Assembly: GCA_963922205.1 (NCBI GenBank)
Contig: CAWUHX010000235.1
Coordinates: forward strand, 413,918-477,917
From: Romanomermis culicivorax
Lineage: Eukaryota > Nematoda > Enoplea > Mermithida > Mermithidae
DNA length: 64,000 nucleotides
Reading direction: 5' to 3'
Shown here: piece by piece, positions 2,427 through 61,839 of the stretch
Layout: the number at the start of each line of letters is the position of its first letter
Position numbering within the stretch: position 1 is the stretch's first letter
Program-made: the position numbers and the translations under genes
The notes under the pieces: generated by a model
The model's input: the letters and a program-made list of their open reading frames with translations, nothing else
Told to the model about the DNA's origin: nothing
Databases searched by the model: none

Positions 2427-2434
2427 GGACGAAT

Positions 2435-3463
2435 CACTGTTTTTTTCCACGAACTTTTTTCCACAAATGTGGAAAGCGGTCAAATTTTTTTTCCACATAT
2501 GGAAAAAATTTTTTTCCGTCTTAAAATCCATTTTTTGGCTTAAAAATGCTCACAGACGCTTCATCGCACTGTTTTTGAGCTTTTTCAAGCCTTCCGGTGT
2601 TTTTAGAGAAGTTAATTCATTAAAATTGGAGAAAAATTGAAATGTTCGACTTAAAAGCATAATCTACAACCGTTGTTGAACAAATTTTGTAGCAAACTAT
2701 CCAAGAGCATAATTGACTTGAATTACACAAGAAATCAATGGTCAAGTCCTCTATGATGACAAGTGAAAGCCCAAAAAAGATGGTACTTTCCGGCGCGGGG
2801 CGCCGGAAAATTTTTTGGGTATATTGACATTCTAGGATGCTGGAAAATCATTTTTCCGAACATTTATTTCAAGAATTAGATTCCAATTTAGTGTTCAAGA
2901 GTCGTAATTTCTAGAATTTTACTTGAAAAATTTTAAAATCTGTAATTTATTTGTAAACTCTCATGAACTTGGTCGAAAATATATGAGTAAGAAGAATATA
3001 AATTTCCGCAAGATATTTCCAAGAAGCTTTTGATACGATTTTACGTTAGCAAAGAAATAATCGCATCATAAATCATAGAGACTTGACGTGTATTCATCTT
3101 TCTCAAAAGGAAAAAATGCGAATCTTCATTAAATATTATGATAAAATGTCGAAGATAACCAATTAAAACATGAGATACTACGTTTAAGATGATGAAAACT
3201 ATTATAGATTAAGTGATAAATGAAGGTAGACATGATAAAAGCCGCGCCTGAACTTTAATGAATAATGATGATTATTAAAGTTATTACCGGCGCGAAGCGC
3301 CGGAAAATTTTGAGATAATGACCTTCTAAAATGCACCAAAATGCATCTTTTCAATATGAAAACCCCAAATTTTTCTTCCACATTCGTGAAAAGACCTCAA
3401 AAATTTTTTCCACATTCCAGATTTTTTTTCCACATTATAGTGCAAATATGGAAAAAAACAGTG
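2435..3463 (-). mobile_element. Non-autonomous DNA transposon B, complete
   Basis: This 1,029-bp element begins CACTGTTTTTTTCCAC and ends GGAAAAAAACAGTG. It is bounded by a perfect 8-bp duplication, GGACGAAT, at 2427-2434 and 3464-3471. The 8-bp size and CA...TG ends fit the hAT superfamily. Both ends carry repeats of a TTTCCACA/TGTGGAAA word. The core has the hairpin GGCGCG-AGCGCC type and is shared with copies at 14246, 40390, 45511 and 54011. There is no coding capacity, so it would need a transposase supplied in trans. Confidence 0.88.
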
Positions 3464-3471
3464 GGACGAAT

Positions 3472-4258
3472 ATAGGGACATCATTGCATAAGTGAGGATA
3501 ATAAATATGCAAATTTTTTCCCATAACATCGCTTTGGCGCTTTTCCAGTCGTCGTGAACTACTTGCACAGTTTTTCCTTATCTCACTGACATGGTCAGCT
3601 GAAAAATAGGTTGAGCCCGATTTTTACAAAAAATTAATGCGTTAAACGTTAACTTTCTACCAAAGTTTTGGCCCAAAAATTTTTCGCAGTTTTCAGTATG
3701 TTTCTAGTAGAAAAAATTTTTTGTGCCATTAGCACAAATTTTTTTGGCCTCTTGTGCCAATTGGCACAAATGTCCGTGCACAGAAAAAACCCTGCTGCAG
3801 AATTCATATCCCGATACATTTCAACTACAGTTATCCTCATATCTTCTGCTTTACTTAACCCAGTATTATCACTTGATTTTCATTCCAAGGAACAATCTGA
3901 ATAAAATCAGAAATGTGAGAACGTTGTGATGAAATCAAGAAAACAGAGCTTTCCATCGCAAAATGAAAATCGATATTTCCTAGGAAGTACTACAAACGGT
4001 GATAAGATAAACAAAATCGATTGGAATTTTCTACAGTAATAATAATCGATCAATCGATAGTGGAAATTATATTTGAAAGAAAACTGTGATCAATTAATAT
4101 TCGGCTGCGCGCTCGACTGTAGTTTTGGATGATTATACATATTTATGACGTATCCGCGGTTTTTACCCAAATATTTTCTTCTGTTCATAAGTTCGTTCAG
4201 GGTTTCTTCGCACTCAGCAACCAAATTTCGGGCTGTGCAACCAGATTTTTTTCGTGTT
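3472..4258 (-). repeat. Family C fragment, reverse, and unassigned sequence
   Basis: Positions 3575-3793 are the reverse complement of the family C end seen at 1750-1960, finishing GCACAGAAAAAACCCTG. It carries the TTGTGCCAATTGGCACAAA palindrome at about 3752-3770. The rest (3800-4258) is AT-rich with no feature recognised. Confidence 0.6.
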
Positions 4259-4299
4259 CAGTGTTTTTTTCGTGCCAGAGCCAGAACATGGTTTTTGGC

Positions 4300-6011: not shown

Positions 6012-6140
6012 TTTTTGGCACAAAAAAGTTTGGGATGTTTGTGCGTTTATGCCAATTGGCACAAAATTTTTGGCTGGTCAAACATTGAATTTCCTTAATT
6101 TTTAGACGTTTTAGGGGCTGAAAATGCAACAATTTTGCGC
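6012..6140 (-). repeat. Right part of the outer family C copy
   Basis: This continues the family C sequence interrupted at 4299. It matches 4322-4450 closely, including the TGCCAATTGGCACAAAA palindrome and the following TTTTTGGCTGGT. It ends in unassigned sequence. Confidence 0.7.
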
Positions 6141-7944: not shown

Positions 7945-8100
7945 CCGACGGATAACCCTTCCAAGTCCTTAAAATTAATCACTGGGTGCCTAATTTTGAG
8001 ACAAAATGCAGTGTTTAGTCGACATTCAGCTATACTACCCCCGAAAATTTTCAACTTTACTCCTACCCGAAAAATCTGACCTTGGAAACCTCTGATAAGA
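7945..8100 (-). repeat. Family E repeat copy
   Basis: The segment containing CTAATTTTGAGACAAAATG is the reverse complement of segments at about 12905-13010 and 17690-17830, and is parallel to 26255-26400. It is non-coding. Confidence 0.65.
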
Positions 8101-8329
8101 CTTTGACTTCATAAAATGTCGTTTTTTCATCTCGAGCTCTCAAAATTTTTAAATTCTGCATTTCATTTTTCGTCTAAAACACCGATTTGACATTTGTCCA
8201 AGCTGAGCGCCTAATCGGCATCCACTGAGCCAGTTGATGGTCAGTGGCATCGTTGTGTTCGTTACTATAATTAGATGCGAATGAAAAATTGTTTCCGTCG
8301 ATTATGTTTAAAATCATCGTAAAGTTTTT

Positions 8330-8979: not shown

Positions 8980-9007
8980 ATGTCGGAAATTATCGAAGAA
9001 CCGTATG
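8980..9007 (+). CDS. Exon 1, start codon
   Basis: An acceptor TTTTCTAG at 8945-8952 precedes a short leader and ATG at 8980. It encodes MSEIIEEPY plus one base, then donor GTAATT at 9008. This start is chosen because its phase continues correctly into the next exon. Confidence 0.6.
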
Positions 9008-12000: not shown

Positions 12001-15000
12001 TGGTAGCCGCAGGGATCCCGATACTTTTGGTCGGGAAAATACTAAAAAATGTCAATTTTTGAACAAAAAATGGTCTTAAAGGCCAATTTTCTCGGCGCTC
12101 TGCACAATGAATACACACGTCTTTTTAGAAGAAATTACTATTTTTGAACTACTTTTCTGACCTCTTTTCGTAAAAAATCGATTTTTTCCCTTCGGAGACT
12201 CCTCCCCACAAAATTTCGAGAATCACTGACCTCGCCCCTAAAAAAAGTCGCTCCCACCCAGACCTCGGGGCCCCGTTACATGTATGATCTGAATATACCT
12301 CAAAAAATCTTATCGGTTCATCTGGTATCAGCCAGCCCAAAAATTCGGTTGGTTGTCGGATCGTTTTGGTGGTTGTCGAGACAAACGGGGGTAGGGAATC
12401 GATAAACCTAATGCAGTCAAGGTTGATTTTCAAGCTTATTTCAGAGTCTACACACTTATTAATACGTGCGAATGTATCTAGCAAACCTGGAAAAAAATAT
12501 GCCTGGAACCATGAAAAGTCAGAGAATCAAAAAAAAATCGGTTCATTCTATAAAGTTTGAATCTCAAAATTTTCTAGTGCGTAGTATTCATTGATTCCCT
12601 GGTTGGTTGGTTGACATAACTGTAATTGATGGAGGAGTTGTAGGACACCCCTTAATTGGTCGAACCCTATACCCATCCTCCCCCCCCCCCCCCCAAACTC
12701 GGAAAAGTGTGGAAAAAGTTGGCTTTTTTTGCCTTTCTAGGGGAGGAAAAATCTTCGAAATTTTTTCAACTTTCTTAGGATTTTTGCGACCCCCCTCCCC
12801 AAAATTTGGGGAATTTTGGGACCCACCCCTAAATTTTGGGTTTACTCCAGAGTTCCCCAAGATCAGATTTTTTAGGTTGGGGTGAAACTTGAAATTTGTG
12901 GGGGTGGTGTAGCTAAATATCCACTAAACATGTCATTTTGTCTCAAAATTAGGCAACCATTTATCAGTTTTAAATACTTTAGGTAGCGGTAATACTCTCC
13001 TCATACCACTGCCTATGGGGCTGTCTGATTTACCCCCCCCCCCAACTACTCGGACCTCTTACAGGTATCTTTTTTGGTTCGTCGATCGATTGATTTCCTG
13101 ATAAGTTGGTTGATTCTCTAATTGATTGACTGATTTCCCGATTAGTGGGTTGATTCCCTGGTTGAATTCGGTGTTTGGTCGATTTCATGGTTGGTTCGTT
13201 CATTGGTTCCCTGTTTAGTTAGTTGATTCTCTGACCCAATGGTTGGTTGATTCCCTGGTTGATTGTTTCACTAATTCCCCGATTGGTTGGTTGATTTTCT
13301 GATTCAAATTTGTTTGACCGATTAGTTGGTTGATCACCTGGTTAGTGGTTGGCTGATTGATTCCCTCGTTAGTTGGTTGTTTCTCTGATTCTCTGGTTGG
13401 TTCATTAGAGCATGGTTGGCTCCCTGATTTTCTGGTTAATTTCCTGGTTGGTTCATCGATTTTGTTGTTGGTTAGTTACCTTCCTGATTTGTTGGTCGGT
13501 GGGGATGTATCGGGGACTCGGACCCAAGATGGAACCCGATATTACCTCACCATTCTGTTGGACCCGCACCCGATATTTTCAAAATTTCGGACCCGATACA
13601 TCTCTAGTTTTTATCGTATATACAAAAGTAAAAGTATGTCACACAGATAAGCGTAAAAATATAATGGATCCAGACCCGAAATGAGACCCGAAATTACCCA
13701 ACAATTTCGCTGGACCCTGACCTAATATTCTTAAAATTTTGGACCCGGACTTGATATTCTTGAAATTTCGGACCCGGACCCGATATTTTCAAAATTTGGA
13801 ACCCGATACAACTCTGTTGATTGCTTGATAACCTGATTGCTTGGTTGATTGATGGATTGTTCCATGATAGTTGGTTGGCTTTTGTTTATTGTTGGTTGAT
13901 TATCTAGTTTTTAGTGGTTCGCCTATCTCCAAATCCTCTATCCCGTTCTTGCTGTTAAAATCGGTTCACACACAAAACATGATCTCGCGCTGAGAATAAC
14001 GTCATCTGGTAAAGGATGTCGCTTCATCTGGTACCTAGTTGCATCCAGTTGAACTTATTATACAGGTATGTCGAATACTTGTAAGGCTTGAAGTTTTAAG
14101 TGCACTCATTGTTAATCATGCGGAACTGATTTTTCCTCACTATTTGTTCTTACGTTCACAATCACCAATTGCAACAGAAAATCATTAAAAAAATCGGCTT
14201 TAGTGTCTCAAAGGTATATAAACTGGAATTATCAAGCGTTTAATACATAGTTTTTTAGCATTTTACAAGCCATGGCTTGTAGAATTTTTGTCTAACAAGC
14301 CAAAATGGCTTGTCAGAATTTTTTGAGTCATGTGTTTGATCATATCGGATACTGAAAAGATGCATTTTGGTGCATTTTAGAAGGTCATAATCTCAAAAAT
14401 TTCCGGCGCTCCGCGCCGGTTATAACTTAAATAAGCATTATTATTTATTTCCTAGCTCAGGCGCCGCTTCTAACATGTCTGCCTTCACTTATCATCTAAT
14501 CTTTAATAGTTTTAATCATCTTAAACGTATTATCTCATGTTTTAATTAGTAATCTTCAATATTTCATCTTGATATTTTTGATTTCATTTTTTGATTCACA
14601 TTTTTCCTCTGGCACATTTTTTGAGAAAGATCAATACGTCAAGTCTGTAAACTTTTTGAAGCGATTATTCCTTTCTTAACGTAAAATCAATTCAAAAGCT
14701 TCGTGGGAGTAGTTTTCGGAAATTTCTACTCTTCTTACTCATATCTCTTCGGCCAAGTTCATGAGAGTGTGAGAATAAATTAATGGTTTTAAAATTTTTC
14801 AAACATGAAATTCTAGAAATTACGACTTTTGAACAGAAAATTCGAATCTAGTTCTTCAAATAAGTGTTTGGAAAATTGATTTTCCAACATCGCAGAATGT
14901 CAATACCCAAAAAAATTTCCGGCGTTTCAGGCAGGAAAGATTAAAAGCTTTTTGGGCTCTCACTTGTCATCATAGACGATTTAACCGCCGATTTCTCATG

Positions 15001-18000
15001 TAATTCAAAGTCATTATGTTTTTGGATAGTTTGCTCGAAAATTTGTTCCACAATGCTTGTAGATTCAACTTCGATCAAACTCAAAAATTTCAAGTTTCCT
15101 GAATTTTAATGAATTAAGGGCTCTAAAATGTTATTTAATAAATGTTGAATGACATCTCTTTTTTTGATCGATTGCCATGATCCTCAATATATACATTTAT
15201 TTAAAAAATAACCTAGCATTGGAATTTATTCACGTATACTGATATTATAAAATTGGCTTGTAAAAATTTGGAATGGCTTGTAAAATTTTAGGTCAACAAG
15301 CCACTTGGCTTGTGACTCGTAGGTCAAAAAAACCCTGGTTTAATATCGCAAAATTGATGAACGAACACATTTCTTTTTTCAACTATTTGATTTGTACGTT
15401 TTTATAGTTAGGGAATGTTTTTGCAGTCGAGCAATTTTCCTCTGAAATACAAAAAAGATCCAGTTAGGCGCTTGTTAATTCTTTTACGTAGAAATGAAGT
15501 TTAATAAACAACAAAATGACCCCTAGACAAAGTCATACGAGATACGCTATTTTGATATTAAAAGGACAGAATGTATGTTATGCTTTCTTTTTCGACATTT
15601 CAGGACGAGGATTCTTCTACGTACCAAGTGACTAGATAGTTTTCCTGAAAATGGTACTTTTGAACGCGAGAAAAGTGGCACTTCTAACTTGGTTCTTCCC
15701 TATACACATAAAAATTTGAATTTATAATATGTTTTATGCACAATGAAGACTTTTTAGTCGTCGTGAAAAATTTTTTTGTGATTTCTGCACTGGTGCAGAA
15801 TTTTTCGAGTCATGTGTTTGGATAAAATTTTTATGATATGTGTACACACTTCTGATATTAATGAATTACACATTTAATTGCCTTTTTTCCTATATTCACC
15901 ATTATTGTATTGAAACGGGAGAAAAGAACAGTCCAGAAACTTTTTTTGACTTTTCTGCACTGTGCAGAAAGCCCGGTGCAGAAAAAAGACTGGTTTAAAT
16001 TGATCAGTCTACATTTGATTTGCTCACTGTTTGTTTATTTGAAATTTGAGTTTGTAAATTCTAAAGTGTCCTCTATTCATTCATTTACTTTTTGATTCTG
16101 ACTTTTTTCATTGATCTACTTTTTCAGGTAGGATCGTGGCCGCTAAAAAACAGCGACCTCCGTGCCTACGGCGATGTTCCATTCTGGCCGTGTACGGAAT
16201 GGTTTTGTACCGAACACAAAAGTTTACAGTTCAGCTTATTAGCCGCCAAATCGCAGCAAGACGCTTCGAAATTTCTACAACCGCAATGGTCGTCGTCGAT
16301 GGAACCAGCAGCCGCGGCCGCCGCCAATAAATATTTTAGTCAATGCGAAATCGACGATTTGTCGTTGGCGGCCGCGTTTCTGGCCGGAGAACCGATCGCT
16401 ACGGCCCCATTACCCGCGCCCGTTTCAACCCTCTACAACACCGAAGCGGACGATGATTTGGACGTCATTCTGGACGACTTATTGCCGAACGACCTGAGCG
16501 CGGAACAAGAAATCAATGCTCTCGGCGTTCGTCGATCGGAGTCTTTGACGTCGTCATCATCACCGTTAGTTGATTTTGATTCACCCTCACCGGTGGTGGT
16601 TTTTTTCGACCGATCGGTTGAGAGCGAAATCAACGATTGGCGTCAAAGGCGCGTTCTAACTTCGAATGCGCCGCCGGAAAACGTTGACGATAGTGACGAC
16701 AACGGCGATAATTTGTCGGACGAATCGATGACTTTCGATGCACCACAGTTCATTTTGCACATTATTAATGATAACGATTCGCAAAGTGGCAACGAAGAGC
16801 AAAAAGCAAATGCTTTCCCGAGAAGTGAGCTTATAATGATAATAATTTTCTAAAAAAGTGTATCATCTGAATTTCGATCATCAGATTTTTCTTTCATTCT
16901 CCCACATACTTGTAAATAGGTGATTTCTTAAAACACTGAAGCTAAAGATATTAAATTCACCTCGAAATAAGGTATTATTGAGTGATTGTTAATTCAAGTT
17001 TAGTAAACTCACGTTTCCACAATGCATGTCACGGAGATCCGACATTTGAGGAGATAAAGGAAAATTTCGTGAGTAAGGCCGTCGATTGTACAAAATTTTA
17101 GGGGGACATATGGGGAAAAAATTTCATTTTCTAGCCAAAAACTTCTAAAAAATTGTTTAAAAGATTACTGATTGGATTCGGAGAAGAGGCATACATGTAA
17201 CGGGACCCCAAGGTCTGGGAGGGTGGTTGGACGACTTGTTTGGGCTGGGGGTCAGTAATTTCCAAAATTGGGGGGGGGGGGGAGGTGTCTCTGAAGGAAA
17301 AAGTCGATTTTTTCACGAAAAAAGTCCGAAAAATAGTTCAAAAAATAGTAATTTTTTCTAAAAATACCGAAAAAATGTATTCATGGTGCGAAGCGCCCGG
17401 ATAATTCGCATTCTTGACCATTTTTTGTTCAAAAATTGACATTTTTCATGAAAAAATTAACGTTTTTCAGTATTTTTCCGACCAAATGTATAGAGGTTCC
17501 TACGGCAACTATATGGCTAGCCATAGGATTGGAAAATCCTGGGGGGGGGGGCGGTCGCCCAATGGCATGGCTAGCCATATGGTCGACGATTTCTGGGGCG
17601 GGGGGGGGGTTCCCATAGCACTCCTACACAATTAGATGTATGATCAGAGGTCATCAAGGTCACATTTTTCAGGTAGGTTTAAAATTGAAAATTCGCAAGG
17701 GTAGTACAATTAAATTTCAACTAAACACGTCATTTTGTCTCAAAATTAGACAGCCAGTGATCTATTTTAAGGACTTTAGGTGGGGGGTAATACCCCCCTC
17801 ATACCCCTCCCTATGGGGCACTCTGATTCGGGTTGTGATAGTTCAAAAAAAATAAGCGAGATTTTTATATTATTTTTGGATTTCATCATATTTCATCATT
17901 TACAATGATGAAAAATACCGGGAAAAATCTTCTCCCGAACAAAATCTCCGAGTGTTTGCATTTAGGCATGAATTTAATCACGTTTCATCATTGGCCCTAA

Positions 18001-30000: not shown

Positions 30001-33000
30001 TTTAGCTAAAAAGCTGTCAGAAGCGTAGAAATTTTCCAAAAATACTTCCATGAAGCTTCTGTCAAGTTGCACTGTGGAAAAAATCCTGGTTGTAACTAGT
30101 GATGCTTGCGCTAAAGTTGATTTTATGAATCTTGTTGATGTTTAAACATTTAGAGCTTCTATTATGTGCATATTATTGAATGAAGTTTTTATTGTGGTAT
30201 CAATTTTGTAATTTTTGCATTTAAAAAAATTTTGTCTCGTTATTTTTAGCATTGAAAATCTCGTACTATTTGCAAGGTGTTTTTTTGCACTGTGCAAGAC
30301 TTTTTCGGCTCGTGAAAAACTTTTTTTCCAGTTTTTTTGCACCGTGCAAAAAAATATTTATGAAATATGGAAAAAATTGGTGTTTCCATATAGAGAAGAT
30401 GCATTTTGGTGCATTTTCGTAGGTCCAAATCTCAAAATTTGTCGGTGCTTCGCGCCGGTTATAACTTTAATAATCATTATTTTTTATTGTCAAGCCCAGG
30501 CGCGGCTTTTAGCATGTCTACCTTCACTTATCACTAATTTTTAATTGTTTTCATCGTCTTAAACGTGTTATTTCATGTCTAATTGGCGATCTTCAGTATT
30601 ACATCATCATATATTTAATGAAGATCCCTATTTTTCCTTCATACATTTTTTGAGAAAGATCAACGCATCAACTTGGTGCATTTTAGAATGTCATAATCTC
30701 AAAATTTTCCGGTTATAACTTTAATAGTCATTGATGTGTGTATTACATAGCTCAGACGCGGCTATCAGAATGTCTTCGTTCAATTATTATTTAATGTAAA
30801 ATAGTTTTCATCATCCCAAACGATCTCATGTTTTAAATGGTAATCTTCCACGTTATCTCGATATTTAATGAAGATTTACAGTTTTTCCTTGAAACATTTT
30901 TTGAGAAATATCAATACGTCAAGTCTCTAAACTTTTTGAAGCGATTATTCCTTTCTTAACGTAAAATCAATTCGAAAGCTCCATGGGAGTAGCCTTCAGA
31001 AATTTCTACTCTTCCGCTCATATCTTTTCGGCCAAGTTCATGAGAGTTAACGAATAAATTACTGGTTTAAAAATTTTTTATATTATAAAATTCTAAAAAT
31101 TACGACTTTTGAACACAAAATTTGAATCTAATTCTTGAAATAAATGTTTGGAAAATTGATTTTGCTGCGTCGCTGAAGTTCAATAGACGAAAAACTTTTC
31201 CGGCGCGGAGCGCCAGAAAGATTAACATATTTTTTGGACTTTCACTTGTTATCATAGAGGACTTGATCATCTTTATCATCTAATGCAAATTCATTATGCT
31301 ATTGGACACTGGACAGTTTTCTAGAAAATTTGTTCCACAATGCTTATAAATTAGACTTGAAACTGGAGAATTTAAGTTTTTTGTTCAATTTTAATGTTTG
31401 TAGTTATAAATAAAATTTGAAAATTACACTGATTTGGTTATTAGTCTTTGGCCATGACGTGGAATAACACAGGTTACTTTATTTGTACGTATTTTTGCCT
31501 TGTACAAATTGTACAAATGAAATATTGGCTGCTGTTTGTACATGTACAAATGGGTCATGTACAAAAAAAAACCTGTTTATACTACAAAAATTTTTTGGCG
31601 TGCAAAACAGCTAGTGCAAAAAAACACGACGCCCCCTAAAAATTTGATCTGGCAACACTGTCCAGCGCGCCCAGCAGTGTTTTTTTGTGCACGGACATTT
31701 GTACCAAATGGCACAAGAGGCAAAAAAAATTTGTGCCAGTGACACGAAAAAATTTTTTTCGATAGAAATATACTAAATATTACGATAAGATTTTAGGCAA
31801 AAAGTATGATAGAAATATAATGGAAGCTATTCAATGTTTCTTTTTTCCTGTTGGCCTTGTCCCAAATGTCGAAAGAGGTCAAAATTTTTTCCCCATTTCC
31901 CAAAGTCGTTTTTTTCGCTTAAAAATGCTCATAGATGCTTTTCAAAAGTGTTTTTGAGCGTTTTCAAACCTTCTGGTGCTTTTTCCGTTAATTCATTAAA
32001 ATTGAGCAAAAAATTTGAAATTGTCGAGTTTGAAGTCTAATTTACAGGCTTTGTGGAACAAATTTTCCAGGAAACTATCCAAGAGCATAATGGCTCTGAA
32101 TTACATGAGAAATCAATTGTTAAGTTCTCTATGATGACAAGTAAGAGCCTAAAGGCTATTAAAGTTTTTGGCGCTCTTATCAGCTCTCCAACCGAAAATT
32201 GTTTTTTTACAACCATCACTGCTTTTTTGATTTTTTTCAAGCAAAAACAAAATGTGTTCCTCCAACGATTTCCCTAACATTTTGAGCCATCTGGAGACAA
32301 TCCATAATGAAGTCTCTTTATTCCCTCCCGTACTTCGGAGTTCCGCTCAATGTTTTTTGTACAGTTACGATATTGGTGTAAAAAAATTATCAAGTTTTCT
32401 GCATGCCACACAAAAAAACTTTGATTTCTGTTGTACTTTGCATGCAAATCGTTTTTGGCAATTTTCTTTGAACAGTGCACAAAGAGAAATAACTGGTTCC
32501 ATTATATGTATGTTCTGAAGTAATGACCTCCTAGACTAATTCAATAGTTGTTGTTGCTACCGGCCCAGGATTAGACCAACTTTTTTTCATATTATTTTAG
32601 ATGAAAGCGTAATGAGTTGGCGTTTATTAAACTCGATTGATCTTCGAATGCTGACAGCTATCAAACGTTCTATATTTCAAGCTGTGATTACTCGTCCCAT
32701 TTCCACCCTCGACCAAAAAGTGGAACTTGAAGCGTCACGCCTAGGTTGTAAACGTGACAAGTTCTTTTATTTATGTGCTTTCGAAATTGCTAAACGTCTA
32801 CAAAGACAAAAAGGTCGACTAAGGGAACCTTATAGCGATGTAATAGAATCGCCGTCACCCAATGATCATTTTTCCATTGCGCCTGGGTTATTATACTCAG
32901 TGCCTTTGGCATGTACAAAGTTTTCGCGTGATAATCAATTTCCAGATGATGTTTCTTTACGTAATTGGCTAGATATTATAGAAGAAGCCATTGCAACAGA

Positions 33001-39000: not shown

Positions 39001-42000
39001 AGCAAAAGCTTTTTGTCACCTTGAAGTGCAGCCATTATGCGAAGATTTTGTTCAATTAAATGGTCTAACATATAATACTGCGCATTCCAGTGAGTCAGTT
39101 CAGCTTGCAATAAGTGATTTCCTTTATCACTAGGTAAAAATGCTTCTTGAAACTTCTTTAAATTTTCTGTTGCCTTCAGCCAATGTTTGAAGTGGCTGAC
39201 TAATTTTCGTGCTGTTGCTAACAATTTACCTGAAAAAATAGCATCATATAATATTTGAAAAACATAGCTTGAAACACCAGATTTTGAAGAAATTTAATGC
39301 ATTTTTGAGAAATAAATTTAGTTACCGATAACATGATTTGCCCAAACCTTCATTGCTAACTATGTTTTGGATTATATGTACCGAGAAAGGTAGGCTAGGT
39401 AAGTCAAAAATTTGAAGTCCAGCCACCATATTTGAACTGCTATCTGGTAAAATCATTTGTGTTTTTTCGAAGACGTTGTTCCCTTGCAGCATTTCGGACC
39501 TTTCTGGCCAACATTTTCCCCAGTATGAATCAAAAATAATTTATATTTGATGTGGGAGAGAATACAAAAATTGAGTAACATTGATCATCTGGGAAATATG
39601 AACAGCACAAAATAAATTCTCGTTTGAAGTCTTTAGTTATGTAATGGCACATAAGGCTACAATAGCTTTCCAAAGCACAAGAAGACCAAATATGGTATGT
39701 GAATGCTAAATATTGCTGTTCTTCCAAAAAAAAGCGACTTTCGTGCGAATTTTTTCATACAGTGAAGGATTTACAGTTTCCGAAAAATAGTGATAGCTAG
39801 GGCACTTAGATTTCTGAGTAACGCGTTTCATAATTTCCCGAAAACCTTCGTCTTCTACAACAGACATCGGCTGTTGATCTAAGCAAATAAACTGAGCAAT
39901 TTTTTGAATTAAAGCTTGGGAACTTTCATAGTCAATGTTCCAAGTTTTTATAAAACTAGCAACTAAAGTCATTTGATTGGCATTATTTGTATTGTTTTTC
40001 ACTGCTTGGTGCTTATTTTTCACTTTTTCTTCCAATTTCTGCTCATTTAAATATTTTCTGTTAATCGATGGATGGGTCGCCAAGTGCCTTTTCAGGCCAC
40101 TGTGCCCAAACCCATGTTCATCTTGACCACCATGGCTAATTTCTTTAACACAATAGTTACATATTGCCTTTCATTTGTCAGTCGTCGAAATAGTAAAAAA
40201 TTCCATATAACAGCAGAATGAGTAGAGGTGGCCATTCTTCAAAATTAAGGTTTAATTTGACTAAATTAGAGAATTAAATCTGCAAAAAACAGAGGAAAAA
40301 ATATTGTACATATGATCCAGAACCAGTGTTCTTTTTTGCCAGAGGCAAATGAAAATTTTTTTCGGCAAATGAAATTGAGGTAGTCATTTGTACATGTACA
40401 AATGGCTCTTTCCCCATTTAGGGAAGAAAATTTTGGGGATAAGGTACAGAAAATATGCGTTTTGGTGCATTTTAGAAGCTCATAATTTTAAAATTTCACA
40501 GCGCTTCGTGCCGGTTATAACTTTAATAATCACTATTATGTATTATCTAGCTCAGACGCGGCTTTCAGGATGTCTACCTTCACCTATCATCTAATGTATA
40601 ATAGTTTTCAACATCTCAAATATATTATCTCATGTTTTAAGTGGTAATTTTCAATATTTTATCTTGATATTCAATGAAGATTCACAGTTTTTCATTGGAA
40701 CAATTCTTGAGAAAGATCAATACGTCAAGTCTGTAAACTTTTTGAAACGATTATTTCTTTCTTTAAGTAAAATCAACCGAAAAGCTTCATGGAAGTAAAT
40801 TTTGGAAATTTCTACTCTTCTTACTCATATCTTTTCGGCCAAGTTCATGAGAGTTTGTGAATAAATTACTGGTTTTAAAATTTTTCAGATAAAATTCTAG
40901 AAATTACGACATTTAAACACAAATTCTAATTTAATTCTTGAAATAAATGTTCAGAAAATTGATTTTCCAGCGTCGCAGAATGTCAATATCCAGAAAAATT
41001 TTCTGGCGCTTCGCGCCAGGAACATCAGTATCTTTTTTGGGCTCTCACTTGTCGTCATAGATGACTTGACTGTCTTTTTTTCATGTAATTCAAGGTCATT
41101 ATGCTCTTGGATAGTTTTCTGGAAAATTTGTTCCACGATGCTTGTAGATGAGACTTCGATCAAACTCAAAAATTTTAAATGTTTCCTAAATTTTAATGAA
41201 TCAAAGGCTGTAAAAACAGCAAAAGGTTTGAAAAAGCTCAAAAATACATAAATAGATTGTCTAAGATTTTTAAACGAAAGACGACTTCGGGAAAAGGGAA
41301 ACAAACTTTGATCTCTTCTCCGTACATGTAACGGGGCGCCGAGGTCTGGGGGGGGGCGGGCGACTTTTTTGGGGCTGGGGGTCAGAAATTACCAAAATTT
41401 TGGGGGGAGGAGTCTCTCGAGGAAAAAAATCGTTTTTTTCAGGAAAAGAGTGTGAAAAATAATTCAAAAAATAGTAATTTTTTTCTAAAAAGACCAAAAA
41501 ATGTATTCATGGCGCGAAGCGCCAAGAAAATTCACATTCTTTACCATTTTTTGTTCAAAAATTGACATTTTCCATCAAAAAATTGACATTTTTCAGTATT
41601 TTTCCGACCAAAAGTATGGGGGTCACTATGGCTACCATATGGCTAGCCATTGGATTGGAAAATCCTGGGGGGGTGGTCGCTCAATGGCTAGCCATATGGT
41701 CGACGATTTCTGGTGGGGGTTCCCATAGCACTCCCCCCCCCCCCAATTACATGTATGCCCTTCTTCCATTTGGGGAAAACGCCTGGGGAAAAACAGTGGT
41801 GACAGGAGAAAACCGCAGTGCAGAAACTTTTTTTTAAACTTTTCTGCACTGAGCAGAAAGTCCGGTGCAGAAAAAACACTGCTTTCACTCATATCTTTCC
41901 GGCCAAGTACATTAAAGTTAACGAATAAATTACTGGTTTAAAATTTGTCAAATAATAAATTCTAAAAATTACGGTTTTTGAACACTAAGTTCGAATCTAA

Positions 42001-45000
42001 TTCTTGAAATAAATGTTTGGAAAATTGATTTTCCAGCGTCGCCGAAGGTCAATACACAAAAATTTTTCCCGGCTTTTGCGCCGGAACGATTCACATCTTT
42101 TTTGGGCTTTCACTTGTCATCATGGAGGAATTAACCATTGCTTTATCATCTAATACAAATTCATTATGCTATTGGATAGTTTTCTAGACAAATTGTTCCA
42201 CAATGCTTGTCAATTAGACTTGAAACTCGAAAATTTTGATTTTTTGTTCAGTTTTAATGATTTTTTTTGCAGTTATAAATAAAATTTGAAAATTACACTG
42301 ATTTGGTTATTAATCTTTGTCCATGACATAGAGGAACACAGGTTACTTATTTATACCTATTTTTGCTACGTACAAATGAAATATTGGCTGTCGTTTGTAC
42401 ATGTGCAAATGGGTCATGTACAAAAAAAACCTGTCCAGAACTCAACTTTGAATAACTTACATTAATTTCAAATATAGGAGAACACAGAGTCATAAAAAAC
42501 AGGTAAAAAAACGCGTATGATTGGCACCAGCACTGGCGCAGGTGCTTAGGCCCCAGCACCAGCAAAAAAGGTGGCACCGGGACATCCCTAAAGTCAACTT
42601 GCATGCAGGGTGGTCCTCCAGAAATCCAGGTCCTAACTTGCATTCCTTCCGCTGCAAGAATCGAAATAGAGGTCCAGGTGAAGGACCCTGTATTTGGACT
42701 GCTGGACTCCACAAAAATATAAAATTGAGAAATATTAAAATATGGCCCATCTGGCTGCCGATTTTCTTCTTTAATAGAAACAAATTAACAATGACCAAAA
42801 ACATAGACACACGGGCCTTTTATGCACGTCGTCTATACAAATCATGGTGGACGCGATTGGCATCAACTTTGGCTAATTTTCACAACCTGGAGATAGACTA
42901 TGTCCATCCCCCGACACGCTAAAGGAAAGACTCTTTCAAAATAAAGAAAAATCCAAATTTTGTCCAAAAATATCAAGAAAAGTGAGAACTTTGGTCAGAA
43001 AAGTTGTTACTTATTCAAAGCATGGAGCACCGGAGTGAGACTTTCTGGCTTAGAGTTATGCGTGAACTACATTAAAATTCACTGAAAATTGGTATGCTTT
43101 TTGTATAGGCTGGCATACATTTGCACGAGTGAAGTAAAATCTAGATGTTTATTTCATCATTGAAAAGGTTCAAAAATCGGAGAATAGGAAGTTCCGATTT
43201 AATTTCAAGAAAATTATTGACATATCTTCAACTGCATAACGAAATATCCAGTGCATACGTGCATATTGGAGGTGGTAAGGGGGTAACCCTCCTACCTGTG
43301 ACCCTGGGTATCTCCTGCATACATGAAATTGGGGGGCAAGTGCTATGGGAACCTCCGCAGAAATCGTCTGCCATATGGCTAACCTTTGGGCGACTCCACC
43401 CCAGGATTTTCCGATCATATGGCTGGCCATATGTCGGCCTTAGGGATCCCCATACTTTTGGCCGGAAAAAAACTAAAAAATGTCAATTTTCGAACAAAAA
43501 ATGGTCAAAAAGGTCAATTTTCTCAGCGCTCGCACCATGAATACATTTTTTCGGTCTCTCCAGAACAAATTACTATTTTTTGAATCATTTTTCGAACTTT
43601 TTTCGGGAAAAAATCCAATTTTTTTCTTTCAGAGACCCCTCCCCCCAAATTTTTTTGATTTACAGACCCGGCCGCAAAAGCGTTGACGGACCCCTCCAGA
43701 AGTCGGCGCCCCGTTACATGTATGATCCCCTTTCTATGAAAAAATTCTCAAACACCCCTTATATTATGTATGATAATCATCCTTGTGGAGCTCTCTTTTT
43801 GTTTTTTGCTCATCCACCATTCCCTCGATGAAACAAGGATCCTCCGCCTGGAAAATAGTTGCCCTACGTATCTGATCGGTGGATGCCTCAAGTATCTCTT
43901 TTTCTAAATATAATCTAGTTACTTATTTTTAGTGCTTATCGTGATCTGTGTTGCTCAGCTCACCGAATGGTAGCTAACGCTAATCAATTGGAAGGAAACG
44001 CAGAGAATTTCGCCGAAATTGGTCGGCTTACGTGCGATTTATTGCCTAGATATTGCGATTTTTGCTTCGATTATATCAATTATGTACCTAGAGAGGATCT
44101 TCATGGTAAAAAATTAGAAATTCGCAATAGAGAACAGCCGGTTCCACGTACTTTGACCGGGCTGCTGCGTCTTCCGAAAATAGATGGATCGGCAACTGTA
44201 ACATTGAGCGTCTTGAGCATTGATTGATCAAAAATGATCACAGAATATTTTCTTTTTATGAAAATTAGCGTTAAAGTTTACAAATATGCTTTTCTAGTAT
44301 AGATGGGACGGATCCACGTTTTTGACTACATGAGGTACGGATATTAATAAATTGCTTCATCAGATCCGGATCACTGCAATCATCGGATCCGAATTAGATC
44401 CAGGCAGCTGAATCCATATCCTCTATATTGCATATACATGTGGAAGAGTAATCGCGTATAAACCTTTAATTATTAAAACTCAAGTTGTATGAATTCATAT
44501 TTCTTTCATAAGTTTAATAGATTTTATGGTAATCATTAAAATAAGGGGGAAATTGAAGCAAGAGCTTGGACAAGTCTGCACCGCGCAGAAATGACCAGAG
44601 AGATTCTGCACCTTCCGTATCAGACGGATTTTTTGGGCTGGTACGGGAAACTTTTACCGAGTTTTTTGTACGGTACGGATTTTTTGATGCACAGCGCAAC
44701 CTAGAGCATGACTATGAGAAAATTCAATGAATTCATGTTCACCGCAGTCGGATAATTCTATTTCTCACTAGCTTTACAGACGTTTCGAATTTTATTCACG
44801 TTGATATGAGATGAGACATAGCGGATTCATAAATCATTCAGGGATAACCGGATGAAACTGCATCTTTGAACTCAACGGCCTTAGCTGTGAAGGAAAAAAT
44901 TACAAATTGTGTTTTAACTATTAATCAAGCGCACAGTACTGAAAAATCTTGAATTTTAATATGTTGAAAAGCCGAAAAATGCATCTTATCATCGATTCTC

Positions 45001-48000
45001 TCAGTAGAAGAGACACCGAAAACTTGGACTGCTTCTCGACATACCTTGGCAAAAAAAATTTTGTACGTAGCTACCCGAGCAAAATTTATTTAGCTTGGTT
45101 GTCATTTTTCAAAAAGGTTGTTTCAATATTTATCATAAATGTTTTTTCACTCCAAAATGCCCAATGATCTTTTATATGCACGCTTTTGAGCTTGTTTTGA
45201 ATTCTCTTCTTCCATTAGTCAGTAATTTGTGTAAATTAAGGGCAAAAGTAAAGATTTTTTAATTTTAGGTCAGGTAATGCTGAATGCAGCAAAATCAACA
45301 ACAATGTTCTTTTTTTGGTCATGTCCATGATCACATATATTCCTGTATAATGTGTCAGTCATTGATTCTGAACTTTTAAAATCAATTATTTTTCTTATTT
45401 TAAGACTTTAAAATGTCTAGTCAAAAAACTATAAATTCGTTCAAATTTAACATTGAATTACACATTTAACTTGCCTTTTTCCTATATTCACTATTATTGT
45501 ACTGTAAAGGCACTGTTTTCCCCAAATCGTGCTTTTTGGGGAAAGATGTATTTTAGTGAATTTTAGAAGGCCATAATCTCAACATTTTTTGGCGATTGGT
45601 GCCGGTTATAACTTTAATAATCATTATTATGTATTACCTAGCTCAGACACGGCTTTTGGCATGTCTACATTCACTAATCACTCAATCTATATATAACAAT
45701 TTTCATCATCTTAAAGGTATTGTCTCATGTTTATTGGTAATCTTCAATATCCTGATATTTAATGAAGATTCACATTTTTTCCTTGAGACATTTTTTGTGA
45801 AAGGTCAATAATGTCAAGTCTCAAAGCTTTTTAAAGCAATTATTCCTTTTTTAACGTAAAATGAATTCAAAGGCTTCATGGAAGTAGTTTTCGGAAATCT
45901 CTACTCTTCTTACTCAGTTAACGAATAAATTACTGGTTCTAAAATTTTTCAAATAATAAAGTTTTAAAAATTACGACTTTCGAACATAAAATTTGAATCC
46001 ATTTCTTGAAATAAATGTTCGAAAAATTGATTTTACAGCATCGCACAATGTCAATACCCAAAAAAAATTTCTGGCGCTTCGCACCGGAAACATTGACATC
46101 TTTTTTGGATTTTTCCTTTTCATCATAGAGGACTTTACTGTCGATTTCTCATGTAATTCAAAGTCATTATGCTCTTGGATAGTTTGCTGGAAAATTTGTT
46201 CCACAATGCTTGTAGATTAGACTTCGATAAAACTCGAAAATTTCAATTTTTCCTCAATTTTAGTGGATTAACGGCTCTAAAAACACCATAAGGTTTGAAA
46301 CAGCTCAAAAACACATAAATAAAGCGTCTATCAGCATTTTTAAGCGAAAAAATGGCTTCGGGAAAATGGAGGAAAAAATTTTGACCCCTTTTCCCATTTG
46401 GGGAAAAGGTCCGGGGGAAAAACAGTGGTAACAGGAGAAAACCTGCAGTACAGAAATTTTTTTTGGCCTTTCTGCACAGTGCAGAAAAAAACACTGCCTA
46501 GAGCTATAATCTTTCTTTGTACTTGTACAAAAAAAGACAAAGTTCTTTTGTGCATATAAAAAATCCAAATCATTTTATAAACGAAATTTTGTTCATGTTC
46601 CCTAGGAAACTCTTCATAGCAGGCACGTATAAGATACGATATTGAAAAATACAAATTTCTCTTATAAGCTTTTCATGCAGAATGAACTTAGAATTCATGT
46701 TGTTTAAACGGCTGAACATAAATTTTCCTCCTTTTTAAATCAAGATCATATGACTTGTTTATAAATATTGGTAAAAAAGAAACTTTAACCAATACTGATA
46801 CTATCACAGTATTTGCACCCTGCAGACGCATTTTCGAAGCTTGGTTGGATGAACCAATCCGAGTCACTATGAAAAACCATGTCTTGACTTGATGTTTTAC
46901 TGCATTTAGAGTCTGGAAAAAAGTTTTCAGACCAGTATATGCTGAAACTCTGTGCTTTGTACAAAAATCTCAACAAAATTTTGTATGAAGTCAAAAATAT
47001 TCATCCCGTAAAAAACACTGAATAACCATTTGAATCATAATTTGTGTGTAGCGCCAGATAGTTTCGTAAAAATTTGCCTCAACAATTCTGAACTCTCAAA
47101 ATTTCTTTTTGCCACCAAAAACACCGTCTTGACGAAAAAATAGTATTCACATATTTCTGATTCGGTTTCATTCTGTTTTCTTATTCTCATCGTATTTCTT
47201 TTTTCCTCCTGAATACATTTGTACTGTGCTCCTTGTGCTTTAATTCTCCAGAACAGGAACCCCGCATTAATCACTGATTGGTTGATGCCAGATGTCCCCA
47301 AGGGCAAAAATCTAGATAGGGGTAAAGTCTTATATGGTAAAGGTGTTAAGTGCTTTTAACATGCCCAGCGTTACTTTTTTTGCTCGCTGCAGGTCCCAGA
47401 GGTTTATATTGCGGTGGCTCCATGAATACGATAGGTCTACAGCGACGCACAAAGTACAAGTCAAATATTCATCAGTATCTTGGTCAATTTTACACTTTAC
47501 TCTCAAATTAGTTAGTAGTTTCTCAAATTTGTTTGATGGCGGTTGCTGAGTCCATGATTGGCTTGTTTTTTTCCCGAATCTATTGGTTCTTCCCAGGTTG
47601 GTTGGTTTGCTGAACTTCTTGGTTGGTTGGCTGACTCCCTGGTTGGCTTTCTTGGCTGTTTGTCAAGTTCGACTCTCGAATTGCTTGCTTCTACCCAAAT
47701 TTTTTTTGGTTGACTCCTTGAATGACTGTTTCCTAAACTTGTAGGTTGCCTCACTGACCAGTTGGTTAGTTGTTTGACTCCTAGATTGATTGGTTGTTTC
47801 ATAAATGGGTCATTTGCCTTCCAGATCATTTGGTTGGTTGTTTCCTAAATTGGTTGGTTGTTTCCCTGATCAGATGGTTGGTTGACTCCCAGATCGGTTG
47901 GTTAGTTTCCAGATCAGTTGGTTGGTTGCTTTCCAAAGTGTTTGGTTGCTTCCCAAATTGGTTGGGTGCTTCCCAAATAGGTAGGTAACTTCCCAGATTA

Positions 48001-54010: not shown

Positions 54011-55114
54011 CAGGGTTTCTTTGACCTACGAGTCACAAGCCAAGTGACTTGACCTTGAATTTTACAAGCCATTCCAAATTTTTGCAAGCCAATTTTATAA
54101 TATCAGTATACGTGAATAAATTCCAATGCTAGGTTATTTTAAATGTATATATTGAGCATCACGGCGATCGATCAAAATAGAGATGTCATTCAACATTTAT
54201 TCAATAACATTTTAGAGCCGTTATTTCATTAAAATTCAGAAAACATTTGATATTTTAGAGTTTGATGGAAGTCTAATCTACAAGCATTGTGGAAAAAATT
54301 TTCCAGCAAACTATCCAAGAACATAATGACTTTGAATTACATGAGAAATCGACGGTTAAGTCGTCTATGATGACAAGTGAGAGCCCAAAAAAGCTATTAA
54401 TCTTTCCTGCCTGAAACGCCGGAAAATTTTTTTGGGTATTGACATTCTGCGATACTGGAAAATCAATTTTCCAACCACTTGTTTGAAGAATTAGTTTCGA
54501 ATTTTCTGTTTAAAGGTCGTAATTTCTGGAATTTCATGTTTGAAAAATTTTAAAACCATCAATTTATATTCACACACTCTAATGAACTTGGCCAAAAAGA
54601 TATGAGCAAGAAGAATAGAAGTTTCTGAAAACTACTTCCATGAGGCTTTTGGATTGATTTTACGTTGAGAAAGGAATAATCACTTCAAAAAGTTTACAGA
54701 CTTGACGTATTGATCTTTCTCAAAAAATTTGTCAAGAGAAAAATGTGAATCTTCATTAAATATCAAGATGCAATATTGAAGATATTACCAATTAAAACAT
54801 GAGATGATACGTTTAAGATGATTAAAACTATTAAAGATTAAAGGATAAATGAAGGTAGACATGTTAGAAGCAGCGCCTGAGGTAGGAAATAAATAATAAT
54901 GCTTATTTAAGTTATAACCGGCGCGAAGCGCCGAAAAATTTTGAGATTATGACCTTCTAAAATGCCCCAAAATGCATCTTTTCTGTATCCGATATGATCA
55001 AACATGTGACTCAAAAAATTCTGACAAGACATTTTGGCTTGTTGGACTAAAATTCTACAAGCCATTTTGTCAGTCCAACAAGCCATGGCTCGCAAAATGC
55101 TAAAAAAAACAATG
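54011..55114 (-). mobile_element. Non-autonomous DNA transposon B, AAGCC variant, reverse
   Basis: The 1,104-bp copy reads CAGGGTTTCTTTGACC at the left and AAATGCTAAAAAAAACAATG at the right. It is the reverse complement of 14246-15337 along its whole length, with the same AAGCC/GGCTT palindromes. The flanks (CAACCCTC and AATCAAAT) do not match, so the insertion boundary is altered. Confidence 0.8.
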
Positions 55115-55224
55115 AATCAAATACTCACATTGAAGAATGTATAGAAATTTATTGTTTAGATCACTATGAGACTGACTTAGATTCAAAATGTATAGCAACC
55201 ACAAAATAGCGCAGCATGTGTGAA

Positions 55225-55460: not shown

Positions 55461-55473
55461 GTTATGTATTTAG

Positions 55474-58400: not shown

Positions 58401-58666
58401 CCTAAATCTTGTGCCTGGGTCAGGGTTTCTGTATTTTCTACATGGGCAGTGTGTTTACGCCTCTGGGGGGAATTATTGTACCTACAGAATGTATGTTTTC
58501 ATGTGAGTTATGAGGGCCAGGTGCCTATGTGCAAATAATTATGTACATCTTAATTGGGTCAATGGGGTGTGGGACGATCAAAACAGAGTGATTCACATAA
58601 ATTTATATGAATGTTTGGGTGTGAATTCCAGACACCCTTGATTGATGTGTTAGCATCTACGTTACA
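55474..58666 (-). pseudogene. Gypsy-like LTR retrotransposon, gag with deleted pol
   Basis: Minus strand. A putative 5' LTR begins TGTAACGTAGATGCTAAC at 58666. A gag frame follows at 57710-56255: an N-terminal helical region, a matrix/capsid-like segment, then tandem CCHC knuckles (CEICFRSNHMTRDC, CIHCYQTGHRSSHC, CFLCKQEGHTSRYC). Further frames at 55984-55490 include a short pol-like stretch (IKQKVEQLKKADIS) and end NEDVQLRKEGNVM, with TAG overlapping a second TGTAATGTAGATGCTAAC at 55499. Only about 26 bp of that 3' LTR survive. The protease, most of RT, RNase H and integrase are missing. Frames are broken, so it is inactive. Confidence 0.78.
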
Positions 58667-58899
58667 ATACCTACATGCATGTTCTTTGTTTCTTTTTTCC
58701 CTTATTGGCTCATTCCCTTTTTTATTCTTATTTTGAACCACTTTTTGTTGAATTTTTTCAGGTTATGTACTTTCCTCCTATTTTTTTACCTATCTTCTAT
58801 TGTGTTTTTTTGCTTATTGTCTCTTTATTATTTGTTTTTTGTTCTGCCTTTAGTACTCAAGACACGATTTCTGAGAGGTTCTACTTTCCCTATGATAAG

Positions 58900-60215
58900 T
58901 TGAAAATTAATTATACCTCAATACTTTGTCGATTTGCATGTCGACTTCCAATTGGGGCTTTGCCAGCAACAGGGTATCCAATACACAGAATTCAAACTCT
59001 CCATTCAGCCCTGGAAAAGCCCTGCCAATGGCAATGCTAATGCTTTGTTACACCTCTCATGACATTGATGATGCCTCCCACCATAGGCCAGGAGGAAATG
59101 TCATGATGATACAGCAGATCGACCTCTTTACTCTCCAAAGAGTAGACCCTCACCTCAAACCCATCATTGAAAGCATCCAACCAAACCCTAGCTGTTCACT
59201 TATGCATGTGTTAAGGAGTGCTTCTAACCTTTCCTTAATGGGATACAATATTTCATTTATTCTCCAATGTTCACAAATCACCACAGAATAATCCCGAAAA
59301 TAAAAATCATCAGAATAAGAAGAAGAATAATAATAAGGTATCTAAAAATGTTTTATTCATATAGTTTCTTATCAGGTTTGGCCTAGATTACTCACGGGGT
59401 TCTGTTTATCAGCTTCATGAAAGTTTACTCTAGTTGCTAACCGAGGCTAGCTAGAAGTTTCTCATAATTCTTTACTGTGGATCGCTAGCCGAGGCTAGTT
59501 GTAGTTTACTTTTGATTAGAATGGTCAATATGAACTTGACCAAAATTTTCGGACAGGCTTGGTGGTTTCTCAAACAACAATGATAATAAATTAAAATGCA
59601 AACGTAGTTGCTCGAAATAATATTTTGTTTCTCAATGAACAAACAGCATAAAAAACATGATGGAATTTTGTTTCCATGAAGTGGTTGCTGTTCTTCACTC
59701 ATGTACATACACACTGACTGGGAAGAACACCTCCCATATGCAGTGTTTGTGGTAAACATACACCAGAATGAGACCACAGGGTACTCCCCCTTTGAATTCA
59801 TGTATGGACAAACTTCTGGGCTACCAATTGACTCAGCCTTCACCTTTACCTCACCTGCACACATTGTACTCATGGCCACCTATAATATGGAGGTCAAGTG
59901 TCACTTCACTAAAGCCCTGACCATCATCCAAAACAAATTTGAAGGCACAGGACGCCTGCACCTGAACTTATAATTCCAATGCCAGAGATGCCTCATACAA
60001 GTAGGGGACTTGGTACGGAAACACAGTACATCCAGAAAACTTGACCTTACCCTGTAACTGCTCCCAGTTTACACTATACCCAATGCAGTCATAGAAGCAG
60101 CATACCCCAGTGTCACCATTGAGTGTGGCACCAGCAAAGTTGAGGTGGTCCCCATGAACAGGCTTAAGCATTACCACCTGTCCACTGACATTCCAGTAAT
60201 GCTATTGGATTAGCC
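58900..60215 (+). pseudogene. Gypsy-like pol fragment: RNase H end and integrase
   Basis: Plus strand, several frames. At about 58940-59040 is an RNase H C-terminal motif (YTEFKLSIQPWKSPANGNAN; compare the Gypsy YxFxIxYRPGKxNxNADALSR pattern). At 59095-59200 is the linker (IDLFTLQRVDPHLKPIIES). At 59715-59850 is integrase (LPYAVFVVNIHQNETTGYSP, FEFMYGQTSGLPID). At 60000-60180 is a C-terminal module (VGDLVRKHSTSRKLDL ... VPMNRLKHYH). Stops at about 59291, 59971 and 60057, and shifts, make it inactive. Orientation is opposite to the gag at 55.5-57.7 kb. Confidence 0.78.
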
Positions 60216-61485
60216 ATGCATCTCAGATGCAATACCAGAGGTCATATCTGCCAATCAGGACCATACATGCATGTGCGGGGTTTGGGGTGTTTCAACCCAC
60301 AGCTCACTTTGATTGACCCACAGCAGATTCTTGCTGATCCCCAGCAGATTTCACTACCCCAGCAATGATCAAGAAGATGACGAAGGAAAATGCACTAGAG
60401 AAAAGAGAAAGTCATCATAAAAATGGAAATGATGCTTCAGATTAACAATTTTTCTAAACAAATCATATTTGATTCCAAAAAAATAACATCAAAACTTTAA
60501 AAAGTGATTCTTGGCAAATAGTTTCACATATCTGACAACCATAAAATCAAGAATATGCTGATTGGATGTTAGAAGACCTTTCTAAAATCTTTTTTTCATT
60601 ATTGAGAATGAGAATTAATCTTGTATTCCACTCTCTGTCCTGGCTGACCCTCAGCTGATATTCTATGCTGTGCATATATGCTCAGGATCCCCTTTGTACT
60701 TTTGCAATGACGTCATTGATTGAATGAGACATGGGTCTCAATCTTAATGCTGAAGCGGATGACACCAATGCCACCATGCCTGGACCACAATAGGATGATC
60801 AATTGGATGCGAACCACCACCACTTCAAGGACAGGGTCATCCTTCTCTGAAGGCCTGCCATGTCACAAGTAGTCACGCATGTGATCTTATGGTATACCTA
60901 AATTTCTTACAGTATGCCTGCTTGTTGTCACTTGTGTCCACTTTCATGTTTGCATCTTTTTATAACTATTTTTGTACTTGACAAACGACTCTATCAAACA
61001 GTCCCTGACTCCCCAGAGACTTCCTTCTTGCATCTTTACATGAATGCATGCACACTGGCATCATCTCTACTAGAAAGGCCAGTGCAAACTATTTTTGGCC
61101 TTCAACTCAACCAGCTTCGTCTCTACTGCAAGAAGCATCAATGATTACTGTAGCCTCCTCCTGCTACCATACTCCAGAGTGGCTGACACACCTACTCCCA
61201 CTAGCAAGAATTCCAATTTTTGCACCACCATACTTGTATTTTGATACTACAGAGTATTTTCAAATAGCATCAGCCCGATCTTGAAATATCGCTTAGCTAG
61301 CAAGACCACTGAAAAATGCCAAAAAATCATCAATTTTCAAACTTTGGCATACTGTAGCGGCGCGAATATTCGTTTACAAGCAAAACGAATGGTACAATGG
61401 AACTCAGGGCACGAAAATACCCAAAATATCTGATTTTGAGGTATGGTTAATTTTCAACTTATTATAGGGAAAGTAGAACCTCTCA
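60216..61485. other. Sequence downstream of Gypsy fragment, unassigned
   Basis: GC content stays a little higher than surrounding introns and CCCCAGCAGATT words recur at 60330-60360. This may be decayed Gypsy 3' sequence. No recognisable frame. Confidence 0.35.
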
Positions 61486-61489
61486 GAAA

Positions 61490-61839
61490 TCGTGTCTTAA
61501 ATACGTATCAAGATAAAATATTGAAGATTACCAATTGAAACATGAGATGATACGTTTAAGATTATGAAAACTATTAAAGATTAAATGATAAGTGAAGGTA
61601 GCCATGTTAGAGGCCGCACCTGAGCTAGGAAATAAATAATAATGCTGATTAAATTAATAACCGACGCCAAGCGCCGAAAAGTTTTGAGATTATGACCTTC
61701 TAGGATGCACCGAAATGCATTTTTTCGTTATCAGATGTTATCAAACACATGGCTCAAAAACTTCTGCACCAGTGCAGAAATAAAAAAATATTCTGCACGA
61801 AGCCTAAAAAGTCTGCACTGTGCAGAAGAAAAAACACTG
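61490..61839 (-). mobile_element. Partial B element, TGCAC variant
   Basis: Reverse B-core 5' half (61500-61720, with CCGACGCCAAGCGCCG) followed by CTGCACCAGTGCAG and CTGCACTGTGCAG palindromes. It ends AGAAAAAACACTG at 61839. The other end is missing. Confidence 0.65.

Follow-up and report, generated by a model that had tools for sequence, protein, structure and literature searches.

A 64-kb stretch of the nematode Romanomermis culicivorax (contig CAWUHX010000235.1, positions 413,918 to 477,917; hereafter the window) holds a series of related mobile elements, listed in Table 1, whose ends carry short repeated words. These loci are non-autonomous hAT elements with 8-bp target duplications, and they combine one common core, here called the B core, with differing short inverted end words. 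When the window elements are placed beside further copies from the same genome, it becomes probable that they represent one core lineage of elements resembling miniature inverted-repeat transposable elements (MITEs), moved by transposases that read the end words, with the words altered both in place and by nesting of one element within another.

Elements and families

The analysis covers the window and 111 loci (~299 kb), mostly chosen by similarity to window elements. The genome searched comprises 359 Mb in 595 contigs; DNA searches scored the best 40 candidates and protein or family searches the best 150, so that the copy numbers given are minima and the sequences read are those most similar to the queries. 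The families sampled are TTTCCACA (L001-L008, where L001 is the window copy at 2435 and L002-L008 are seven further copies), AAGCC (L009-L038), TTTGCAC (L039-L068), TGTACA (L070-L075) and TTCTGCAC (L097-L100). Some copies are non-independent, as the common duplications of L052/L054/L057 and of L070/L073 are probably duplicated insertions. These two sets, and likewise L047/L048, have duplications or flanks in common and are segmental or haplotype duplicates in the assembly.

The assignment to hAT is exemplified by the target duplications. A scan of the fetched loci and the window (101 rows; two window copies coincide with L001 and L009) recovered hAT-like end pairs with 8-bp duplications, allowing one mismatch, at 52 distinct coordinates representing 50 places, against 0.75 expected from shifted flanks. 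By family, such duplications accompany the ends in 6/8 TTTCCACA, 22/30 AAGCC and 16/30 TTTGCAC cases, in five of the six TGTACA loci and in two of the four TTCTGCAC loci. The terminal inverted repeats have the form CA(C/G)TG, with CATAG/CAGGG instead in the AAGCC family. One 7-mer recurs at least three times, in both orientations, at 77% of 186 T-run ends versus 18% of 2191 other T-runs, the 186 ends being non-independent since their source loci were fetched by similarity. The traits are those of MITEs, with sizes of ~0.2-1.4 kb, many copies, and little or no coding capacity as judged from size alone. For each query, almost all of the 40 best-scoring places span nearly its whole length at 86-98% identity, and mean divergence is 1.0% for TTTCCACA (6 copies), 2.4% for AAGCC (7 copies) and 9.5% for TTCTGCAC (2 copies).

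The core is common to the TTTCCACA, AAGCC, TTTGCAC, TGTACA and TTCTGCAC families. Flanks of core copies reveal further end types at the same core start, namely TTTCGCC (L030), TTTCCTCA (L085, L018, L032) and TTTCCGCA (L034), and in L013 AGGAGCC ends accompany a distant version of the core. Other T-run end words in the fetched loci are TTTGTAC, GTGCC, GTGCAC, AGGAGCC and AGGCC. The two ends of the TGTACA family differ, the left carrying TTTGCC together with TGTACA and the right TGTACA.

The original prediction, made from the window alone, described one transposon architecture with an exchangeable palindromic end word at seven or more loci. The shared core and the differing words are real: repeats at 60-94% identity join the listed B loci (20/42 direct and 25/95 inverted repeat families listed), and the duplications at 2435 and 14246 are perfect. 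The number of separate loci has to be reduced, as three of those listed are parts of two elements: 40387 and 42400 are two ends of a single element, and 31540, taken for a terminus, is a buried TGTACA end within the 30280 element. The word read as TGCAC at 61755 is TTCTGCAC. At 45511 there is indeed a TTTCCCC element, which is nested in a TTCTGCAC element and not free-standing. Copies with unlike words at their two ends, also proposed, are found in the TGTACA family; at 30280/31540 the impression is due to layering.

Table 1. Elements of the lineage and related ends in the window
Feature	Position	Strand	Remarks
TTTCCACA-word hAT element with B core	2435..3463	-	core-left at high-coordinate end; perfect 8-bp duplication GGACGAAT; terminal bases matching 14/14
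AAGCC-word element, CATAG/CAGGG ends, B core	14246..15337	+	perfect 8-bp duplication GTTTAATA
Degraded TTCTGCAC element without B core (empty relative)	15732..15990	+	matches L111 element 9-99 and 204-365
TTTGCAC-ended composite	30274..31629	+	limits approximate; no duplication seen
Family C type end, word GTGCC/GGCAC	31675..31760	+	by eye; end coordinate approximate; family C elements with duplications occur in L003
TGTACA-word element	40324..42433	+	duplication TCCAGAAC
TTCTGCAC element, left end lost, hosting nested TTTCCCC element	45311..46496	+	L111 matches flank insert
Nested TTTCCCC-word element with B core	45511..46427	+	duplication GTAACAGG right, GTAAAGG left (one base missing)
Second AAGCC-word element with B core	54011..55114	-	repeat matches to other B loci; flanks checked, no matching duplication
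TTCTGCAC composite: left end and core, rest lost	61506..61839	-	sequence matches; nearly all 334 bp matched at 86-89% by 39 other places (best 40 scored)

End replacement by nesting

For TTCTGCAC, ends were replaced by nesting between families, and the empty, nested and collapsed forms can all be identified. The empty element, L111, has a perfect duplication CTGCAGAC, and neither core nor TTTCCCC sequence was found in it. In the nested form, the window element that begins at 45311, positions 80-289 (73%) and 286-345 (85%) of the L111 element are matched on either side of the TTTCCCC insert. The collapsed composite with TTCTGCAC ends constitutes a repeat family (L097-L100), in which a buried terminus of another word group is intact in L098 and degraded in L097. 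About 29 bp of the TTCTGCAC element persist inside the newer ends in 30/30 AAGCC loci versus 0/8 TTTCCACA loci; in the window copy at 14246 they lie directly inside the left end (14314-14342, matching L111). The AAGCC cores fall within the TTCTGCAC cores in a midpoint-rooted tree (supports 82-94, unstarred). Nesting is the best reading of end replacement for AAGCC and likewise for TGTACA, whose window element contains, besides a TTTCCCC stub, a right terminus of TTCTGCAC type at 41799-41881 and an insert with CATACATGTAA ends that was placed by eye at ~41318-41767.

The TTTGCAC family provides a second case, with TTTGTACA inside TTTGCAC and recombination between the duplicated cores, and here too the ends were replaced by nesting. 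Core-left is present twice in 18/30 TTTGCAC loci, with a junction from core 282-286 to 17-20 in 16 of the 18; the first copy forms its own clade and the second groups with TGTACA cores (99/97). A TGTACA right terminus with a CAGGG tip is buried ~90 bp inside 25/27 TTTGCAC right ends. The window composite displays both features, with core-left at 30393-30671 and again at 30673-30904 and a buried TGTACA right terminus ending at 31575. Nine single-copy TTTGCAC forms were typed at 32 diagnostic columns: the change from type 1 to type 2 comes early in five (L040, L043, L049, L064, L066) and late in one (L053), and type 2 extends throughout the remaining three, namely L041, whose first copy is broken, and L047 and L048, both with a TGTACA left end. 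Perfect duplications also flank L043, L053 and L064 themselves, so collapsed forms moved again.

Eight short TTTGCAC elements (L101-L108) were read in search of an empty recipient. L104 and, by eye, L103 retain a remnant of the TGTACA end and were rejected as deletion products. The others, L101, L102 and L105-L108, are without that remnant (a pattern match in L106 being judged chance by eye) and may be deletion products too. L105-L107 read TTTTATAGTTATAGTAC, and L108 similarly, where the TGTACA element sits in the long forms; this sequence looks like an excision footprint, though it may alternatively be a deletion junction.

In-place word change and the core tree

Comparison of the TTTCC group (CCCC, CCACA, CCTCA and CGCC) shows a different mode, in which some words were altered in place on one framework (TTTCCCC/TTTCCACA). 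The left ends of all members of the group are alignable from near the terminus into the core, and CCACA (L004) and CCCC (L020 left, L002 right) are identical at 103/138 positions on the left and 151/191 on the right. Between TTTCCCC and TTTCCACA, an A/C difference or its complement falls on the same base in 8/10 word sites (left s2-s5, right s1-s4), the match at left s2 depending on moving a one-base gap in the CCACA/CCCC alignment. As exceptions, left s1 is changed otherwise and right s5 is lost; left s2 and s3 carry extra changes. That one letter differs at most word sites is difficult to account for by independent drift. In a CCTCA left end (L085), an inner TTTCCACA site stands next to TTTCCTCA sites, as would be expected of an intermediate.

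The phylogeny of the core places these observations into context. Among 47 core-left sequences, 11 labelled groups need 10 changes, which is the minimum (shuffled mean 34.1). CTGCAC needs two changes and CCCC three, neither being a single clade, and a constraint uniting GCAC with CTGCAC cores was not rejected (p 0.133). Words are mostly inherited with the core, and discordance appears inside composites, not between groups. It could be argued from this minimum number of changes that ordinary divergence suffices, each hAT family having drifted to its own word along with its transposase and with no exchange of ends, and for the in-place series of the TTTCC group such an explanation may hold. As an account of the whole lineage we regard it as improbable, since it is already contradicted for TTCTGCAC and TTTGCAC, where termini of other word groups lie buried inside the ends and where TTCTGCAC exists in empty, nested and collapsed forms, with TTCTGCAC sequence inside AAGCC ends.

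The original prediction had proposed wholesale replacement of the word, or recombination between families, and had set discrete swaps against a continuous mutation series, which it named as grounds for its own refutation. Both patterns are present: TTCTGCAC and TTTGCAC were gained by nesting, and the TTTCC group is a continuous series changed in place. The discordance that it expected between trees of words and cores was checked and gave way to a mostly concordant picture.

Site geometry, transposases and a possible change of enzyme

Site maps were made from words picked by inspection, with at most one mismatch and one copy per family. Right ends have sites at about 10-14, 24-28, 33-39 and 55-60, and their orientation starts ++-+ in 8/12, with the first site absent (+-++) in three AAGCC-like ends. 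The s1-s2 gap is 14-15 bp in 8/8 four-site families, and the s2-s4 gap is 31-33 bp in 11/12 families with different words; CCTCA deviates with 29 bp (s1-s2 15 bp, s3 not found) and was omitted from the gap permutation. Left ends are looser, with three sub-geometries by position of the first two sites. Their order is +--+- in 7/14 (CCACA with one extra weak site) and the same order minus sites in six more; the TTTGCC left end departs from it. Where all left sites were found (7/14 families), s2-s3 is 20-21 bp and s3-s4 21-24 bp. Counting the first three sites at the tip, +-- is seen in 8/14 left ends, and five of the other six are without one or more sites. Under within-end permutation of families with all sites, dropping the weak extra CCACA left site and right sites beyond s4, gap variance was as low in 0/20000 trials for right ends (8/12 families) and 1/20000 for left ends (7/14), figures that measure conservation and not independent trials because families may share descent. 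A masked-spacer alignment for end homology was weakly positive, and geometry was therefore used in its place. The word is decoupled from the geometry, in that site order and spacing are largely kept across families and the word differs.

Transposases of classical hAT elements, such as maize Ac, bind short subterminal motifs. To our knowledge, no set of differing words on a single core lineage has been described in these classical systems, and a screen of open-access literature by title and the start of the abstract found no description of the same phenomenon. Drosophila mar, reportedly a hAT MITE (PMC3517528), is comparable as a short, non-coding hAT element. Galileo of Drosophila is said to differ, being a P-type element of foldback-like structure that has long terminal repeats and not word arrays. 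The likeness to Galileo reportedly lies in recombination between copies (PMC2775673). There is also a likeness to the left end of Hermes, a hAT element of Musca domestica, for which the relevant passages describe a short BED-bound motif repeated near the tip, a quasi-palindrome of subterminal repeats (STR) 1 and 2, an antisense STR3 and AT-rich neighbours (PMC10368747). There, STR1 is sense and STR2-7 antisense at rigid spacing, a 1-bp shift of which impairs cleavage, and the +-- tip order of 8/14 left ends here is that of LE-STR1 to STR3 (PMC10368747). The same passages concern a single element with a single motif (AAGT/C), in contrast to the many words on one geometry here, and a right end whose RE-STR1 to STR5 are all sense, whereas right ends here are mostly ++-+ (PMC10368747).

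As many word pairs are adjacent inverted repeats and the transposase sites are putative, the words could instead be stem-forming or regulatory repeats, such as hairpins or sites for host proteins; their enrichment within ~130 bp of termini, in an order and spacing that resemble the Hermes left end, speaks against this improbable reading. Also improbable is that the core is a frequent insert landing in many unrelated MITEs, such that common cores say nothing on lineage. In its favour, nesting is common here (e.g., L003, L032, L038) and the AAGCC and TGTACA junctions are located where core homology stops, yet homology in the TTTCC group is continuous from terminus into core with no junction, and no duplication bounding the core alone was noticed, no systematic search having been made.

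No transposase with these ends was found in what was read among the 150 PF05699 places listed, namely one whole element (L069) and 23 downstream regions (up to 950 bp). These 23 regions hold other hAT families with other words, and none was judged to own T-run ends; the T-run ends near PF05699 places in L078, L079, L080, L085, L109 and L111 were judged to be inserted elements, as duplications show for L085 and L111. A PF05699 fragment within the CCTCA element of L032 was rejected as its transposase, as comparison with L096 assigns it to a nested hAT with CAGGGTTGGCAA ends. L096 carries, at 456-3459 on the reverse strand, a hAT element with a BED-like exon, CAGGGTTGGCAA ends and duplication GCTGGAAA, and most of the at least 150 places listed for its C-terminal fragment are 93-100% identical. 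L069 (G000:C126:713900-718800) has, at 283-4178, an open hAT frame of 864 amino acids (DUF4371 and dimerisation domain); the element holding it is bounded by duplication CTATTGGC and carries a subterminal word of its own, GGGCCGCAAAAA. Further distinct words, repeated downstream of other hAT transposase fragments in L076-L095 and read by eye, are GGATCCGGATC, CCGGATAT, CCCGGGTACC, CGGTTTC, GGTTCC, GAGTCC, AAAAAACCT and GCGGAGC. End-word diversity may be genome-wide.

The window itself has a Hermes-like hAT transposase remnant at 38781-40170 on the minus strand, with a BED finger (Pfam E 2.4e-4) and apparently with introns; near it (~37450-42590), GGTGCC/GGCACC repeats and AGGGATGTCCC-like ends were noted by eye. 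A different dispersed repeat occurs at 17189, 27025, 33727, 37048 and 41320; its ends are CATACATGTAA-like, and it contains G-runs and a palindrome, ATGGCTAGCCAT. A foldback-like element is formed by an inverted repeat at 4831-5101 and 5431-5701 (arms 271 bp, 96% complementary, loop 329 bp), and a degenerate repeat array at 13066-13471 and 47702-48021 has units around TTGGTTGATTCCC with many steps of 20-44 bp.

The words of the core lineage thus changed by two modes. In the first, the same base was altered at most homologous sites (TTTCCCC/TTTCCACA, with CCTCA and CGCC on the same framework). In the second, an element inserts into another hAT element bearing a different word, and the composite is moved by the outer ends. 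The inner left end is then lost, either by deletion or when the duplicated cores recombine, so that the old core comes to stand under a new word, often with the old right terminus still buried. By analogy with Hermes, the word may be the binding site of the transposase BED zinc finger, the spacing may reflect how the transposase multimer is arranged, and where the word changes, the mobilising enzyme may have changed too. This last step draws on Hermes and on the coexisting hAT families here, each with its own subterminal word (by eye); the link to changing protein specificity is one that we infer, because no transposase carrying these ends was found. Whether a constant docking geometry combined with an exchangeable address word allowed the core lineage to switch enzyme at least twice in sequence (TTTCCCC, TTCTGCAC, AAGCC) by nesting, with former ends kept as buried fossils and several transposases of different word specificity side by side, seems to us evenly balanced.

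How transposon ends and a transposase come to switch partners is difficult to explain, since the binding sites have to change jointly. The lineage described here supplies a natural series: the geometry stays much alike, the words differ, most sites show in-place changes, and replaced ends lie in layers. In one case the empty recipient, the nested form and the collapsed product have all survived. Pairing of BED fingers with words thereby makes the co-evolution of transposase and ends accessible to testing. Through nesting and subsequent loss or recombination, an element that parasitises one transposase may come to parasitise another, and the lineage could show how such elements switch between mobilising enzymes.

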